From an uncultured Lachnospiraceae bacterium (GTDB lineage: Bacteria; Bacillota; Clostridia; Lachnospirales; Lachnospiraceae): DNA of 64,000 nt. This document shows, piece after piece, positions 1,824 to 64,000 of this stretch (positions are counted from its first letter, which is position 1; each line of letters begins with the position of its first letter). The DNA lies in NCBI GenBank assembly GCA_947652735.1, contig CANTEG010000009.1, forward strand, positions 1-64,000. Direction: 5' to 3'. Below the pieces are notes generated by a model that was given only the letters and a program-made list of their open reading frames with translations, did no database searches and was not told the DNA's origin. Position numbers and translations under genes: made by a program.

Positions 1824-3255
1824 TATTGTGTTTCCGATTTGTATGTATTTTGTTGACAGTATATTGAGCGGTGTTTACACACGGAATTTTTTGAAAGAAA
1901 AATTTAAGAAATGGTCTGCTTGGGTGTTATGGGTTGCCATATACATGCTGATTCAAAGCTTTGTTTTTATAATAGTGGACAATAAATTTCCAATCAACGA
2001 GGTTATGGGAATAATACTGAATATTTGTATCTTGTTGTCTATGCAGCTCATATTTTTTCAAAAGGATTTGCAAAAACAATTTTTCATTGCATTTAGCTTT
2101 GTTGCGGGCAGAGAAATCGTAAAACACATTGGAAGTGTGCTTAGTATTGCTTTTTCCGAATTATGGAACAGGATTTTTGATATTTTATTGGAAAAAGGTG
2201 TGCTGAATACAATGGACAGGCTGTATAGATGGATAGACATTTCCATTGCAGCTATTACAATTGTAGATTTGATGCTGTATGCCCTGTTGCTGTTTGGGTA
2301 TTTGTTTCTCATAAGCAGAAAATTTGTAAAAAAAGAGTATCCGTTCCAATTGCAGGAAAATATATTTTTGATTTTACCATGTATCGCTGCACTCTGCATT
2401 TCAGTTACAATAAAAGTATTGATTATATCAGTTGAAAATGGAATGACCGTAATTATTTATGACACGGTTCCAGCGGCAAAGTTCTGGGTACCATTTATTT
2501 GCGTACTTCTGCTTTTGTCAATTATTGCCAGCGTTGTGCTATTTCAAAAATTAGTGGAGTATAACGAGGAGACGAAGAAGCGTGCTATACTGGAAAATCA
2601 AGTGCAGCAAATGCAACGGGAAATCTCGGAAATACAGGATATTTATACGGACATGAGAGGGCTTAGGCACGACATGAGAAGCCATTTGGCAAATATTTCC
2701 CTGCTCGTAAAAGGGGAAAATGGCTCAGCAAACGAAGAATTGGAACGCTATATCGGGAAAATGGAAGACACTGTAAAAAAGCTGGACTTTTCCTACAAGA
2801 CAGGAAATCCCATTACGGATATTATTATTCACCAAAAAGGGCAGGAGGCAGAGAAAAAGCAGATATGGATTGAGGTAGATTTTACCTATCCGTCAAAGCT
2901 TTTGATAGATGTTTATGATATTGCCGTTATCCTGAATAATGCACTGGAAAATGCCATAGAAGCATGTGGCAAGGTGGATGGGCAAAAACGGATGAGGTTA
3001 CATTCTTATGTGAAAGGAAGCTTGTTTTTTATAGAGATTGAAAATGATTTTTGCGGTGCGGTTGTTATGGAGGAAGAAAGCGGACTGCCTGTCAGCAGCA
3101 AGAAGAACAAAAAGCTGCATGGAATTGGTATTTCTAACATCCAAAGATGTGCAAAGAAGTATATGGGTGATATTGACATTGTAATTTCTGAAACTGAGGG
3201 GAGAAAAAAGTTTAACCTTACAGTAATGATGAACGGGAAACCTGCGGCAAGCTGA
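1816..3255 (+). CDS. AgrC-like GHKL sensor histidine kinase
   Basis: Membrane kinase partner of the preceding LytTR regulator. The first 230 residues hold about six hydrophobic segments, as in AgrC/ComD/VirS sensors. A coiled coil leads to the H-box with H285 (LRHDMRSH), followed by a GHKL ATPase domain with N-box NNALENAIEAC and G-box GIGISNI. Start ATG 1816 has GGAGG 9 nt upstream and overlaps the regulator stop. In this family the usual signal is a processed peptide, but no AgrB processing enzyme or AgrD-like peptide gene is visible nearby, so the inducer is unknown. Confidence 0.92.
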   Translation: MADIVFPICMYFVDSILSGVYTRNFLKEKFKKWSAWVLWVAIYMLIQSFVFIIVDNKFPINEVMGIILNICILLSMQLIFFQKDLQKQFFIAFSFVAGREIVKHIGSVLSIAFSELWNRIFDILLEKGVLNTMDRLYRWIDISIAAITIVDLMLYALLLFGYLFLISRKFVKKEYPFQLQENIFLILPCIAALCISVTIKVLIISVENGMTVIIYDTVPAAKFWVPFICVLLLLSIIASVVLFQKLVEYNEETKKRAILENQVQQMQREISEIQDIYTDMRGLRHDMRSHLANISLLVKGENGSANEELERYIGKMEDTVKKLDFSYKTGNPITDIIIHQKGQEAEKKQIWIEVDFTYPSKLLIDVYDIAVILNNALENAIEACGKVDGQKRMRLHSYVKGSLFFIEIENDFCGAVVMEEESGLPVSSKKNKKLHGIGISNIQRCAKKYMGDIDIVISETEGRKKFNLTVMMNGKPAAS

Positions 3256-3270
3256 TAGTATACTGAAAAA

Positions 3271-3325
3271 TTCGCACCCAAAATGAAGTGGTTCACACCA
3301 AAACTATGAAATACTTTTTTAGGAT
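3271..3325 (+). promoter_or_regulatory. Second LytTR direct-repeat operator
   Basis: TTCGCACC (3271-3278) and TTCACACC (3292-3299) repeat with the same 21-bp period as the site at 987. A TAGGAT hexamer (3320-3325) lies 20 bp further on, and both sites share ATGAAATA just past the second repeat. The site sits between the kinase stop and the first of three small-protein genes, implying direct control of these genes by the regulator at 1098. Confidence 0.7.
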
Positions 3326-3377
3326 GGCGATAAAACAGATAGATGCTTGGAGATGTACAAAATGGAGGATTTGAAAA

Positions 3378-4004
3378 GTGAATGTCAACGGAGTAACACA
3401 AAGTTATTATCAACAATATTTAATGGCAAATAAGAATGTAAAGAGTGCGGAAAAATTTGCAGTCAACAAAACAAGCAATACACAGGGCTTGTCGGAAGCA
3501 GAAGAAATGAAAGAGTTTAAGAAAGAATTTTATGAAGACCTTTCTAAAGTTACCAATCACAGGACAGTAAGCAATGCAGCCGTTAATATTTCAGATGCAG
3601 CATTTCAGGCAATGAAAGCTGACCCGAAATATAGGGAGAAAATTCTTTCGTTAATTCAGAGAGATTTGGGAGACTCTTATGCACCGAGAAACTGTTCGGT
3701 TATGATAACAGTTGGAGCAACCTTGAATGAATATGGAGGGGATTCATGGCCTGTGGGTTACGATTCTGATTTTCATAGACGGGCACAAAACAGCTTTTAT
3801 AAGAGAATAAATGACAAGAGAGACAGGAACAAAGAAATTCAGGAAAAATATCTGGAAAGACGGGAACAGATTAAAAAGCAGCAACAGGAACTATTGAATG
3901 AAACCATTTTAAAGCAGAAGCAGGAAAGAAACCGATTATCACAGTTGTGGAATATGGAAAGGAACGGTGTTCAATATGTTAATGGAAATTACAAGCAGGT
4001 ATAA
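3378..4004 (+). CDS. LytTR-regulated small protein of unknown function, paralogue 1
   Basis: 208 residues, start GTG 3378 with GGAGG 10 nt upstream. The N-terminus is short and polar (MNVNGVTQSYYQQYLM), with no signal peptide or membrane segment. Residues 40-140 form a mixed domain with a segment on missing-residue spacing (ISDAAFQAMKADPKYREKIL). Residues 145-200 are a highly charged coiled coil rich in K, R, E and Q. Overall layout matches the next two genes. I do not recognise a characterised family; similar proteins in Lachnospiraceae may be annotated as DUF6033, which I could not check. Regulation by the upstream two-component system is inferred from the operator at 3271. Confidence 0.75.
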   Translation: MNVNGVTQSYYQQYLMANKNVKSAEKFAVNKTSNTQGLSEAEEMKEFKKEFYEDLSKVTNHRTVSNAAVNISDAAFQAMKADPKYREKILSLIQRDLGDSYAPRNCSVMITVGATLNEYGGDSWPVGYDSDFHRRAQNSFYKRINDKRDRNKEIQEKYLERREQIKKQQQELLNETILKQKQERNRLSQLWNMERNGVQYVNGNYKQV

Positions 4005-4614
4005 TCATTATGCAAATTATGCGGATAGCACGAAAAAATCAGCTAACAAGACAGCGGATGAAAAAACAAATACGCCAACAAACAGCAAAGACAAGGTACA
4101 GGAATATTACGAGAAATTATGTAAAAAATTTCCACACATAAATTTTAATACAAATGGTGGTGTGTTAGCAAGCAATGGTAACAAAGTTACTGTAAATCTT
4201 TCGTATGACTGCTTGAAAAAAATGGCAAGTGATTCGGAATTTGCAAAGGAAATTGAATGGAATTTGTCGGGAGAAACGGCAGCAAATTCAATGGTTTATG
4301 GATGGGCACAAAGAGATGGTGTTGTGCTCGGAGGAAGAACTGTCACATATGATGCAGATGGAAACAGGCAGTCATCTTGCGGTGGAATGAGAACTGCAAA
4401 TGAAGGAAATGAAAATAGCAATATAACTAGATTGCAGAAAAAATATAAGACAGAGGAAGAACGTTATTTAAAAGCAAAAAAGAAACGTGAAGATAAAGAG
4501 AAAATTGATAAGAAGCGGGCAGAGAAAAAGATAGAGGAAGAGAAAGTGGCAAAAAGACGAGCAGAGAAAAAAATAACCGAAGAAGCAAGGATAAGATTTG
4601 ATATAAAAGCGTAA
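3976..4614 (+). CDS. LytTR-regulated small protein of unknown function, paralogue 2
   Basis: 212 residues. Start ATG 3976 is chosen because GAAAGGAACGGTG precedes it exactly as before paralogue 3, and the N-termini then align (M-x-x-x-IT-x-x-Y-x-x-Y). It overlaps the preceding gene by 29 nt. Central region (residues 40-140) contains HINFNTNGGVLASNG and VTYDADGN, the latter close to FDADGN of paralogue 3. Residues 155-205 are a coiled coil with repeated KKRAEKK units. The C-terminus RIRFDIKA matches RARLDVKA of paralogue 3. No signal peptide. Function unknown; the conserved tail could be a targeting or assembly signal. Confidence 0.78.
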   Translation: MLMEITSRYNHYANYADSTKKSANKTADEKTNTPTNSKDKVQEYYEKLCKKFPHINFNTNGGVLASNGNKVTVNLSYDCLKKMASDSEFAKEIEWNLSGETAANSMVYGWAQRDGVVLGGRTVTYDADGNRQSSCGGMRTANEGNENSNITRLQKKYKTEEERYLKAKKKREDKEKIDKKRAEKKIEEEKVAKRRAEKKITEEARIRFDIKA

Positions 4615-4715
4615 GCATTGTTGTTCTTGTATTTCGCGGGGAGACTTAAATATGCTTTAGTGGATTGTCGGACGTGTAGAAATTATTTTTAATAACGAAA
4701 GGAACGGTGATTTAT

Positions 4716-5441
4716 ATGTCAATTAAGATTACAAACAATTATAGTAACTATGTCACAAGCAACACGAATACCACAAAAAATGCGGGCGGTACAAAAGAAA
4801 GTGATGTGGTAACAAGTGTTGTGGAGCTGAAAACTTCAACGCCCGGAGTAACCAAAAAAGAGGAGATAAAAACAGGCTATAAAAATGTAAACAACTACTC
4901 CAAATATTTACAGGGAAAATATAGTTATATGAACACGGGAACAACCTCAATGGAAGGTGTTCCGACAACTGTGTCCGTATCAGGTGCATTTTTGAGACAA
5001 TGCATGAATGATCCTGAGAAAGCAAAATATTTGGAGGAAAATCTGGCAGCTATTCCTGATTGCGCTTCTTATGCGGTATCACATGCGTTGGGAACCCTGA
5101 CAAGCCTTTCTTATCAATTTGATGCCGACGGAAATATAACGATAATTAGCTCGGGTACAAATGACCCTGACGGAAAGATAGCACGGGAAAATGCCAAAAG
5201 GAAAGCACAGGAGAAAAAGGCGGCAGAGGAAAAAGCAGCCAAAAAGCGGGCAGAAAAAAAGGCAGAAGAAAAGGCAGCAAAAAAACGTGCAGAGAAAAAA
5301 GCAGCGAATGAGGTGACAGAAAAAGGCGAATATACAGTAAGTGCTACAGGTTCAGATGTAAAAAACGTTACGGAAAAGGCGATGACTGCTTCAATGGGAA
5401 CATTTGCGTCTACAAGGGCAAGGCTTGATGTTAAGGCGTGA
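4716..5441 (+). CDS. LytTR-regulated small protein of unknown function, paralogue 3
   Basis: 241 residues from ATG 4716, 10 nt after the GGAACGG sequence shared with paralogue 2. The N-terminus MSIKITNNYSNYV is low-complexity, rich in N, T and S. A central domain (residues 65-150) ends with YQFDADGN. Residues 160-205 carry KKRAEKKA and EEKAAKKRA repeats predicted to be a long charged helix, and the protein ends RARLDVKA. Such lysine/alanine/glutamate repeats at DNA level (4500-5300) are prone to copy-number change. No membrane segment or signal peptide; function unknown. Confidence 0.78.
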   Translation: MSIKITNNYSNYVTSNTNTTKNAGGTKESDVVTSVVELKTSTPGVTKKEEIKTGYKNVNNYSKYLQGKYSYMNTGTTSMEGVPTTVSVSGAFLRQCMNDPEKAKYLEENLAAIPDCASYAVSHALGTLTSLSYQFDADGNITIISSGTNDPDGKIARENAKRKAQEKKAAEEKAAKKRAEKKAEEKAAKKRAEKKAANEVTEKGEYTVSATGSDVKNVTEKAMTASMGTFASTRARLDVKA

Positions 5442-5530
5442 AATATATTTGCCAAAAGGCAACAGAGTGTAGTAAGATGAAATAGTGATGGAACGGAAAC
5501 TGAGATTGGAAGCGGGGTGTAGAAAAGAAT

Positions 5531-6304
5531 ATGCTACATAAAATTAATCCACGAATGTATCCCGATTTTATCCCCCTTGCAAGCTCCCACCCATGCGGGA
5601 AGGTTTATCCATGCTCTATTGCGGAGGGCATTTGCGAGGGAGAAATCTTTACAAATGTAAGAGAAAATTACAGCAGTGTTTTATTTTGGTCACATAGTGG
5701 TTTTGCTTATCTTTTAGGGCAATTTGACGAATATTTTCTTGAAGATATTTATGCACTTTTGTTAAATAAAAACAACGCAAGTGTAAGGCGTTTTCTTTTG
5801 ATGACGAATGATGAATTGATACGGGATTATTTCAAACTGAACCAAAATATTTCCATAGAAAAACGTTATTTATTTGAATACGCAGATAATTGTAAAATTG
5901 AGGAAGTGACACTTCCTATCGGATATCAATTAAAAGAAATAGATAACACTATATTGCTTCAAATGCAGGGCAATATAGTGCCTTCACTTTTTTGGAAAGA
6001 CCCAAATGCTTTTTTGGATAAAGGAAAAGGATACTGTATAACCTGCAATAACGAAATTGCTGCATGGGCTTTTTCTGCTGCCGTTAGCAGTGAAGAGGTT
6101 GACATAGGAATTGAAACAAGCCCTATGTACAGGCAGCAGGGATTAGGAATTATTGTAGCGGAAAAAATGATAGAGTACACAATTAAACAGGGAAAGAAAC
6201 CTGTATGGGCATGCCACTACAAAAATGCGGCTTCTGAAAGAATGGCAGAAAAGTTAGGCTTTGTAAAAATATCTGAATGTTCAGTTATCAAATCAAATTC
6301 CTAA
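5531..6304 (+). CDS. GNAT-family N-acetyltransferase
   Basis: 257 residues. The last 90 residues form the acetyl-CoA-binding GNAT core, with motif A MYRQQGLGIIVAEKMI and the later NAASERMAEKLGF motif. The first 150 residues match the longer GNAT type annotated as acetyltransferase 2 (SSHPCGKVYPCSI, SGFAYLLGQFDE). The substrate cannot be told. The start lacks a strong ribosome binding site (GGGGTG 14 nt upstream), so translation may be weak. It converges on the next gene with a 4-nt tail-to-tail overlap and no room for a terminator. Confidence 0.85.
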   Translation: MLHKINPRMYPDFIPLASSHPCGKVYPCSIAEGICEGEIFTNVRENYSSVLFWSHSGFAYLLGQFDEYFLEDIYALLLNKNNASVRRFLLMTNDELIRDYFKLNQNISIEKRYLFEYADNCKIEEVTLPIGYQLKEIDNTILLQMQGNIVPSLFWKDPNAFLDKGKGYCITCNNEIAAWAFSAAVSSEEVDIGIETSPMYRQQGLGIIVAEKMIEYTIKQGKKPVWACHYKNAASERMAEKLGFVKISECSVIKSNS

Positions 6305-62296: not shown

Positions 62297-62330
62297 CGGG
62301 GTTCCTTGTTAACAGGGAACCCCGTTTTTT
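62297..62330 (+). terminator. tuf terminator
   Basis: CGGGGTTCC (62297-62305) and GGAACCCCG (62316-62324) then six T residues. Confidence 0.92.
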
Positions 62331-62637
62331 ATTGTTTATCCATTTCAAATATAACCTGCTCTTTTTCCATATCTCTAAAGAACCCTATTGCAGACAATCC
62401 GACAACATATACAATTAGTCCCGTTGAGATTAAACACAGGTATATTGCATTCCTAAATTGGTCAAACAAAAAACCATAAATAATCTGTCCTATAGGTTGG
62501 GCACATAATGTAATAGCAGATGTATAAGCCATTACTTTTCCAATTAAATGATTTGGTGTCCTTTGCTGGATACGTGAAACCGCAAAAATAGAAAAATTGC
62601 TGTAGTCCATTCCAAGGAACTGAGAAAAGAAACTGTC
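62329..62637 (-). pseudogene. MFS transporter C-terminal remnant
   Basis: About 100 codons encoding the last two membrane helices and preceding loop of a major-facilitator drug exporter: SRIQQRTPNHLIGKVMAYTS, AQPIGQIIYGFLFD, YVVGLSAIGFFRDME. The frame is bounded upstream by TAG, and no ribosome binding site precedes the first ATG at 62610. The first 300 residues of a normal MFS protein are missing. It ends next to a long hairpin (62631). Confidence 0.75.
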
Positions 62638-62687: not shown

Positions 62688-62910
62688 GTAAAAGTTACAT
62701 GTAAGTCGGTAATAATTACGAGGTTCCGATTTTGGTGTCGAAATTTGTTATAATTTGTCAAACTGTAGCATTAAGGGGATGGATGTTAAGCAAAAAGCAT
62801 ACGCAACAACCCTGTAAGACATACCAATAACAGGCATTCATGCTCTATATACTACAGTTTATATAATGCAGTAACTATATAAAAAAGGAATCTGAAAGGA
62901 GAAAGTAATT

Positions 62911-63939
62911 ATGCAAAAAGAGTATGTTGTATTGGAAGGGAAAATTTTTGTAGTAGAGCTTTTGTCGTATATGGGTTCTACTAACTATGGATGGTGCATT
63001 TCAAAGCTGCCACAGCAAATCATTGTCATGGCAACAGAAAATGTTCCTGTGGGTGGCAAATATAGCGCGACGTTATTACAAAGATTTTATTTCGGAGCGT
63101 TGGCGACAGAGGAGGAAAAAGTTGATATTTCATTTACGCTGAATAGCTGGTCAGATTTGGATGATGTAGTGGATAATTTTACTGCAAATGTAAAGATTAT
63201 CAAAAGTGATTCGGAGGATTTTGCTTCCTACAGTGAAAATGCAGTGAAAATTGCAATGCCATATGGATTTGTACGTCCTGATGATGGTACGCAAAATTCC
63301 TGTCAGGATTATGGCTTGCCATGTATCGGACATCAAGATTTTAATCATTTAATTGTAGCATATGGTGTACCACTTGGACAAGATTTTAAAAATCTCAACA
63401 TGGCATGTGAGCCTATATATATGGGACAGAATGCGAATTTAAAATATGGCTACCCGTGTGGAGTACAGGATGCAAGCCTAAAGTATGGCTACCCGTGTGG
63501 AGTACAGGATGCAAGCCTAAAGTATGGCTACCCATGTGGAGTACAGGAGGCAAGTCTAAAGTATGGCTATCCATGTGGAGTACAGGAAGCAAACCTAAAG
63601 TATGGCTATCCATGCAGTGTGCAGAAATATGGCTACCCGTGTGGAGTACAGGAGGCAAGCCTAAAGTATGGCTATCCATGTGGAGTACAGGAGGCAAGCC
63701 TAAAGTATGGCTACCCATGTGGAGTACAGGAGGCAAGCCTAAAGTATGGCTATCCGTGTGGAGTGCAGGAAACAAGTCTTACGTATGATGATCCATATAA
63801 TGTACAGAAATATGGCTACCCGTGTGGAGTACAGGATGCAAACCTTAAATATGGCTATCCATGCAGTGTGCAGAAATACGGTTATCCATGTGGGGTACAG
63901 GATTCACAAGAGGCACGCATATATGCGGTTCCATTTTAA
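62911..63939 (+). CDS. Putative multi-core RiPP precursor with KYGYPC repeats
   Basis: 342 residues. Residues 1-100 resemble a chagasin/I42 inhibitor fold: GSTNYGWCISKLP in place of NPTTGYxW, then GGKYSATLLQRFYFGAL and ISFTLNSW. Residues 118-155 hold degenerate units (MPYGF, DYGLPCIG, AYGVPLG). Residues 178-330 contain twelve KYGYPC units, eight or more as 13-mers KYGYPCGVQ-(D/E)-A-(S/N)-L and others as 9-mers, plus one decayed unit (TYDDPYNVQ at 291-299). The end is ARIYAVPF. No signal peptide. AAAGGAG 8 nt before ATG. The next gene, 18 nt on, appears to be a radical SAM enzyme, so the repeats are likely modified core peptides. Function otherwise inferred. Confidence 0.8.
   Translation: MQKEYVVLEGKIFVVELLSYMGSTNYGWCISKLPQQIIVMATENVPVGGKYSATLLQRFYFGALATEEEKVDISFTLNSWSDLDDVVDNFTANVKIIKSDSEDFASYSENAVKIAMPYGFVRPDDGTQNSCQDYGLPCIGHQDFNHLIVAYGVPLGQDFKNLNMACEPIYMGQNANLKYGYPCGVQDASLKYGYPCGVQDASLKYGYPCGVQEASLKYGYPCGVQEANLKYGYPCSVQKYGYPCGVQEASLKYGYPCGVQEASLKYGYPCGVQEASLKYGYPCGVQETSLTYDDPYNVQKYGYPCGVQDANLKYGYPCSVQKYGYPCGVQDSQEARIYAVPF
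63442..63900 (+). repeat. Tandem 39-bp (and 27-bp) in-frame repeats
   Basis: Coding tandem array for residues 178-330 of the preceding gene. 39-bp units (13 codons) alternate in places with 27-bp units (9 codons, ending at VQ). Synonymous variants (GGC TAC CCG against GGC TAT CCA) are shuffled among units, a sign of recombination or conversion while the peptide sequence is kept. Confidence 0.95.
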
Positions 63940-63957
63940 TGACTAAGGAGGAAACTT

Positions 63958-64000
63958 ATGAAATATCAGCCAATTACCTGTGTATGGGAAGTGACTATGG
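63958..64000 (+). CDS. Start of a probable radical SAM/SPASM enzyme (cut by window end)
   Basis: Only 14 codons are visible: MKYQPITCVWEVTM then the first base of the next. In Clostridia this opening is characteristic of radical SAM/SPASM peptide maturases, in which it is followed by the CX3CX2C cluster. AAGGAGG lies 6 nt before ATG 63958, and the gene starts 18 nt after the repeat protein, so they are one operon. Identification rests on resemblance of a short stretch. Confidence 0.6.
   Translation, partial: MKYQPITCVWEVTM

Follow-up and report, generated by a model that had tools for sequence, protein, structure and literature searches.

The window, by which we mean the whole 64,000-nt stretch of DNA analysed here from an uncultured Lachnospiraceae bacterium, is the first part of a 127,036-base contig in a 2.77-Mb genome, and towards its end two genes follow a series that we read by eye as rpoC, rpsL, rpsG, fusA and tuf (Table 1). 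A preliminary description of this DNA had reported a 342-aa open reading frame with twelve KYGYPC(G/S)VQ units and, 18 nt after its stop codon, the start of a radical SAM gene, both of which were confirmed in the sequence. Following the contig past position 64,000 completed the downstream gene, which encodes 475 aa with a CX3CX2C motif and a SPASM domain. The hairpins that precede and follow the two genes suggest that precursor and enzyme genes form one unit. Neither an exporter nor a protease gene, the neighbours that the preliminary description had thought worth seeking, lies inside this two-gene unit, and no Rfam match over threshold was obtained within positions 2200-6200 of the window's locus (L002).

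Table 1 Features of the two-gene unit, in window positions unless the contig is named
Feature	Position	Strand	Detail
Terminator-like hairpin between tuf and the unit (upstream boundary)	62297..62324 (L002 2298-2325)	+	12-pair stem and T tract
Ribosome-binding site of the precursor gene, AAAGGAGA	62895..62902	+	sequence
Candidate precursor gene	62911..63939	+	ORF, 342 aa
N-terminal leader, predicted chagasin/I42 fold	62911..63252	+	residues 1-114; strands to residue 97
X-Tyr-Gly site PYG (MPYGFV)	63259..63267	+	
X-Tyr-Gly site DYG (QDYGLPC)	63307..63315	+	
X-Tyr-Gly site AYG (VAYGVPL)	63358..63366	+	
Repeat region, 12 units KYGYPC(G/S)VQ	63442..63900	+	spacing mostly 13 residues
Decayed thirteenth unit, TYDDPYNVQ	63781..63807	+	sequence
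Ribosome-binding site of the enzyme gene, AAGGAGG	63945..63951	+	sequence
Radical SAM/SPASM gene with TPR-like end	63958..64000, on to contig 65385	+	475 aa, complete
Strong hairpin terminator after the enzyme gene	contig 65429-65456		

Between tuf and the precursor gene, a 93-aa remnant on the minus strand (window 62329-62610) weakly matched MFS transporter models in their C-terminal part, and is possibly the trace of an MFS gene like the one found in Agathobacter rectalis (plasmid NZ_CP143948.1, locus L055, 2750-7417). There, a 47%-identical enzyme of 384 aa that lacks the long C-terminal part is placed as in the window, after rpsG-fusA-tuf, and is followed by an MFS transporter; the plasmid record includes str-operon genes. 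A small unannotated ORF lies directly upstream of that enzyme, ending at 4904 with the C-terminus VMYGTGVRM.

The N-terminal part of the precursor is predicted to adopt the fold of chagasin (I42). An AlphaFold2 (AF2) model of residues 1-114, built from 31 aligned leaders, had a mean pLDDT of 85.5, and in structure comparison its eight highest-Z chains were EhICP2 (two entries), chagasin (four), amebosin and PbICP, with Z from 11.7 to 9.4, followed by an integrin at Z 8.7. Foldseek alone placed chagasin third (E 8.8e-4), after an Ig-like domain and a dystrophin-complex chain. The predicted fold supports the I42-like leader proposed earlier from the letters alone. The Pfam I42 model (PF09394) had no match in the window protein or in the other leaders of a set of five scanned, and it matched the homologous leader of L041, a locus of a Candidatus Thiodiazotropha bin, with 34.8 bits (threshold 27.2). 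The window leader thus resembles chagasin/ICP inhibitors (MEROPS I42) in predicted fold, with one relative over the Pfam threshold, and differs from them in lying below Pfam detection, in bearing a repeat tail and in having no signal peptide that we could see by eye; relative to the I42 loop motifs, its inhibitory loops are presumably changed. Searched against PDB sequences, the leader profile hit only saxiphilin (E 0.074, on GSTGYSW), which we rejected. Our literature search for chagasin combined with radical SAM enzymes retrieved nothing.

Beyond the leader, the window protein carries 15 X-Tyr-Gly sites, twelve in the repeat units and three earlier, supporting the proposal of a multi-site candidate precursor. 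Three units stand at a 9-residue spacing, two of them after a complete unit and one after the decayed unit, and each of the 12 units contains one Cys. Codon differences among the units kept the amino acid in 184 cases and changed it in 20, with third positions making up eight of the nine variable columns, and this silent excess speaks for selection on the peptide. In an AF2 model of the whole precursor, the tail past residue 110 had block pLDDT values of 22-48, giving no usable tail model. Matches of Pfam PF21403 and PF06505 to the repeats were discarded as repeat artefacts, with no single stretch passing alone.

We next turn to the relatives, where Tyr-Gly is the constant element of the tail. 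Among 191 precursor homologues at E<=0.001, which are protein records without genome context, the tails of the best 120 contained 1159 Tyr-Gly dipeptides, against a mean of 259 and a maximum of 307 in 200 shuffles that preserved composition alone. At the 1157 scorable sites past residue 110 in these best 120, the residue before Tyr was Lys in 70%, Pro in 13% and Ala in 5%; after Gly came Tyr or Phe in 88% (Tyr at +1 in 76%), then Pro in 77% and then Cys at +3 in 71%, so that Cys was lacking at about 29% of sites. In the 35 precursors found at loci, which have up to 16 sites each, Cys at +3 was present at 64% of 352 sites; L041 has no such Cys, and in L018 it is scarce. Sites such as PPYGFPI, MLYGIPP and LMYGVPP in relatives stand beside KYGYPC and AYGVPL in the window. 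One locus precursor (L034, 7512-8231) has a divergent tail in which the chagasin-like leader is followed by AYPFS repeats and two Tyr-Gly sites, partly masked.

The downstream gene proved to encode a radical SAM/SPASM enzyme, with both Pfam models over their cut-offs (Radical_SAM 93 bits; SPASM 26.8 bits, cut-off 21.5). The CX3CX2C motif, on whose presence the preliminary description had made its reading depend, is there, and C16, C20, C23 and nine other Cys were invariant across 18 aligned members. At the C-terminal end TPR_2 scored 26.7 bits, under its cut-off of 27, as did other TPR models under theirs; precomputed annotations placed TPR domains in most of the enzyme relatives among the best 120 of 1033, which were drawn from 7998 candidates scored. 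The best NCBIfam model was TIGR04103 ("nif11-class peptide radical SAM maturase 3"), whose scores of 212.9 bits and, when genomes were searched, 213.2 bits are far below its cut-off of 725; next came the GDL-motif maturase TIGR03913 (196.2) and TIGR04133 (186.1). Over the 18 members, TIGR04103 likewise had the lowest best E of the 25 families listed (8.3e-71), ahead of TIGR03913 (5.6e-68).

To place the family we compared it with a TIGR04103-annotated enzyme from a Nostoc plasmid (L056), GDL-type enzymes from Azospirillum (L058, L065), an enzyme from Aureibacter (L057) and other SPASM enzymes. The motifs WQxQ..MGN, GYY and WxGCxAG were each present in all 19 family rows and in all four Nostoc, GDL and Aureibacter rows, and in none of six other SPASM rows (TIGR04347, TIGR04053, TIGR04133, PqqE and two from Paenibacillus); a Tropicibacter enzyme had two of the three. 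Across the best 120 of 1033 enzyme homologues they were present in 113, 119 and 120, respectively. A first tree gave no clear kinship of the family with the TIGR04103 clade. A second, with seven rows added and PqqE dropped, separated the family plus the Nostoc, GDL and Aureibacter enzymes from five others at 89/78, a node that is not starred and at which long branches meet. The precursor beside the Nostoc enzyme ends in ALYGLPPELF. We take IPR026482 to be the same family as TIGR04103. PlpX, the splicease component from Pleurocapsa, belongs to IPR026482 (PMC11002830).

GDL-motif systems show a partial likeness to the window. Their maturase family is the second-best match of the window enzyme and shares the three motifs, and DUF1843 "GDL motif" peptides adjoin such a maturase at L058, L065 and L057, some of them with Tyr-Gly sites near the N-terminus. 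Of six DUF1843 peptides at L057 and L058, three have Tyr-Gly (KPYGVAI, MLYGGAM, QPYGAGI) and three have Tyr-Ala or Tyr-Met. These systems differ from the window in having short peptides, tandem genes and an N-terminal site. Because the three motifs are common to them and the splicease-like family, GDL maturases may be spliceases too.

The gene pair is real and conserved. Searching 397 genomes of the window's family, we found the enzyme profile at E<=1e-90 in 17, four of them above 750 bits, and the leader profile at E<=1e-8 in exactly those four, where the leader adjoins the enzyme on the same strand in every case. Homologous repeat proteins lacking a radical SAM neighbour, which the preliminary description had named as evidence against itself, were thus not encountered in these genomes. 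The other listed genome of the same genus (G180) has neither leader nor enzyme, and one genome (G278) has two enzyme-family copies (568 and 570 bits) with no chagasin-like leader at E<=1e-8. Horizontal transfer would fit so rare and scattered a system.

Four or more carrier types bear candidate sites of the enzyme family. Our set comprised 48 loci, 47 found through the enzyme plus that of the window, with the near-duplicates L010/L013, L017/L019 and L035/L042 counted separately. A chagasin-like leader was present in 35 of the 48, upstream of the enzyme in 32 and downstream in three. Elsewhere, two S-layer-homology proteins (PF00395) have YG(F/V)P close to their C-terminal end (L030, 5216-5989; L031, 5032-5982), a dockerin protein (PF00404) carries five YGFP sites (L033, 5451-6011), five loci (L037-L040, L043) have short peptides that by eye are of the double-glycine type, with a ComC match for L043, and two (L029, L032) have peptides of 54-58 aa with DYG or HYG. 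The candidate sites of L030, L031 and L033 are therefore on cell-surface or cellulosome carriers. Three of the loci, L044, L049 and L022 (the last at a contig edge), yielded no candidate precursor. In ten leaderless loci with a candidate, YG was the commonest dipeptide before hydrophobic-Pro (seven loci; the next commonest, three), and in 13 leaderless loci YG-hydrophobic-Pro occurred in 8 of 71 ORFs of at least 40 aa, many of doubtful reality, in the enzyme-flanking zones against 6 of 424 ORFs of at least 60 aa elsewhere (p 1.8e-4); both tests are partly circular, since the candidates had first been selected visually for their Tyr-Gly and the motif was chosen afterwards.

At other loci a different set of neighbours recurs. 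A GHKL histidine kinase (14 loci), a LytTR regulator (13) and a C92-like gene (11 of the 49 loci compared) lie upstream on the minus strand, divergent to the precursor (L008-L010, L013, L014, L021, L025-L028, L036, L046-L048), an arrangement that suggests quorum-like control. His, Glu and Cys were invariant in 10 aligned C92-like proteins. Pfam Peptidase_C92 (cut-off 27) stayed under threshold in two of six members scanned (L027, 20.8 bits, E 4.4e-4; L009, 15.6 bits) and had no match in the other four, and a PDB profile search with the gene returned no peptidase. Three of the 397 genomes have the gene, of which two also contain the system (in one of them the match is weak, 100.6 bits) and one does not (Fisher p 2.3e-4); in the two system-bearing genomes the gene and the system are on separate contigs. 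The window's genome lacks the gene, and we accordingly rejected a protease as conserved partner in the window's system; the C92-like gene may be a partner elsewhere.

The nearest described parallel is the Pleurocapsa system of PlpX/PlpY and PlpA, which has an X-Tyr-Gly site, often followed by hydrophobic-Pro, a radical SAM/SPASM enzyme and a precursor gene adjoining the enzyme gene. According to PMC10533398, the PlpXY site is X-Tyr-Gly, natural sites are MYG and LYG, splice tags contain RPLYGLPI or RPGYGLPI, and the splice loss is printed as 135.0757 beside C8H9NO; of the tagged FtsZ variants, just two underwent splicing, so that XYG alone appears insufficient for PlpXY. The three shared enzyme motifs were established with the Nostoc TIGR04103 member. 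The window system departs from PlpXY in its chagasin-like leader, where PlpXY has Nif11/nitrile hydratase, in the number of sites (up to 16 per precursor in the family), in the prevalence of Lys at X, in the TPR-like end and in an enzyme far under the TIGR04103 cut-off. Within the parts of the splicease literature examined, neither Lys at X for a natural enzyme nor an I42-like leader was described. Spliceases are reportedly widespread, and the survey of them by Scott et al. (2022) might already list such precursors. We saw no PlpY-like partner in the window's system, where the next gene, past the terminator, matched no family above threshold, and no recurrent small partner emerged among 49 loci (BLAST, ORFs >=60 aa); the 71-aa neighbour in Nostoc also has no Pfam match, and a diverged PlpY-like gene could escape such searches.

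From the site, the enzyme's kinship and the common motifs we infer tyramine excision at Tyr-Gly. On balance, we favour a system of the spliceotide kind, in which the leader would have an inhibitor fold and most of the 15 candidate sites read Lys-Tyr-Gly; its product would probably be a multivalent protease inhibitor. The enzyme would bind the leader, perhaps through the TPR-like end, which at a guess takes the place of PlpY, and then move along the tail, removing C8H9NO (135.07 Da) at each Tyr-Gly, so that each Lys ahead of a Tyr would become an alpha-keto-beta-homolysine linked to Gly. Alpha-ketoamides are inhibitors of serine and cysteine proteases, which they capture reversibly. The modified tail might, more speculatively, act as a series of reversible traps for proteases cutting after Lys, a natural target that the position of Lys next to the ketone would favour, and the leader domain might present the tail to the enzyme, bind the target, or both. 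The inhibitor-like head fits the protease-inhibitor reading, and its predicted fold may serve only as leader. Spliceotides have been reported as protease inhibitors (PMC10373908, PMC11117315).

The constant element, Tyr-Gly, coincides with the published splicease site, and a loss of about 135 Da per site would therefore be a better prediction than the 2 Da per unit of the preliminary description. Tyramine excision alone does not account for the Tyr at +1 or the Cys at +3. A variant of the spliceotide-like reading would let excision be followed by a reaction of the Cys, such as thiol addition to the ketone or a disulfide; it would explain why Cys is conserved at most sites in both data sets beside a constant Tyr-Gly and seems chemically plausible, and we hold it to be unlikely, a second enzyme being absent from the two-gene unit. 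The Cys-centred chemistry originally put forward, in which the SPASM enzyme ties each KYGYPC Cys to a nearby carbon as in sactipeptides or ranthipeptides and forms 12 rings at -2 Da per unit, is no longer favoured and seems to us rather improbable. Those systems share a SPASM enzyme with the window, every window unit has its Cys, L031 has Cys after some sites, and the enzyme distantly matches StsB (125.5 bits), SkfB (101.3) and PapB (74.5); these curated models score well under TIGR04103, however, and among relatives Cys varies where Tyr-Gly stays, several candidate precursors on other carriers (PPYGFPI, MLYGIPP) lacking the Cys.

Another Tyr-centred radical SAM change, namely a cyclophane, a hydroxylation or a Tyr-Cys link, would suit the constancy of Tyr and an enzyme that is a distant relative of TIGR04103, but the Gly after Tyr is also kept and the common motifs link the enzyme to XYG-associated enzymes, and we give this reading little chance. 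That the precursor is a structural repeat protein, its 13-residue units forming a beta solenoid beside an unrelated enzyme, is highly improbable: in the repeat region the whole-precursor AF2 model does place eight strands, each 6-7 residues long and mostly spaced by 13, but at block pLDDT 33-48, and leader and strong enzyme match occur in the same four genomes while candidate precursors with other leaders retain Tyr-Gly.

Returning to the spliceotide-like reading, we also entertain, tentatively and with more doubt than confidence, a two-warhead inhibitor in which the chagasin-fold leader would be a protease-docking head and a 12- to 15-fold, mostly lysyl alpha-ketoamide tail would trap Lys-specific proteases. 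The enzyme family would then be a general, carrier-independent converter, as the candidate precursors on S-layer, dockerin and double-glycine carriers suggest.

Taken together, these results point most likely to a spliceotide-like system in which a long array of sites follows a leader of predicted chagasin fold. If this is right, radical SAM backbone splicing would occur a dozen times or more per protein on an inhibitor-fold carrier, producing a natural, genetically encoded multivalent ketoamide, and the family would be a source of the more processive spliceases wanted by the labelling study (PMC10533398). A 2022 review (PMC8868522) states that spliceotides had yet to be isolated as natural products and that they had no known role. 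The system described here would, if so read, offer spliceotides a testable role.
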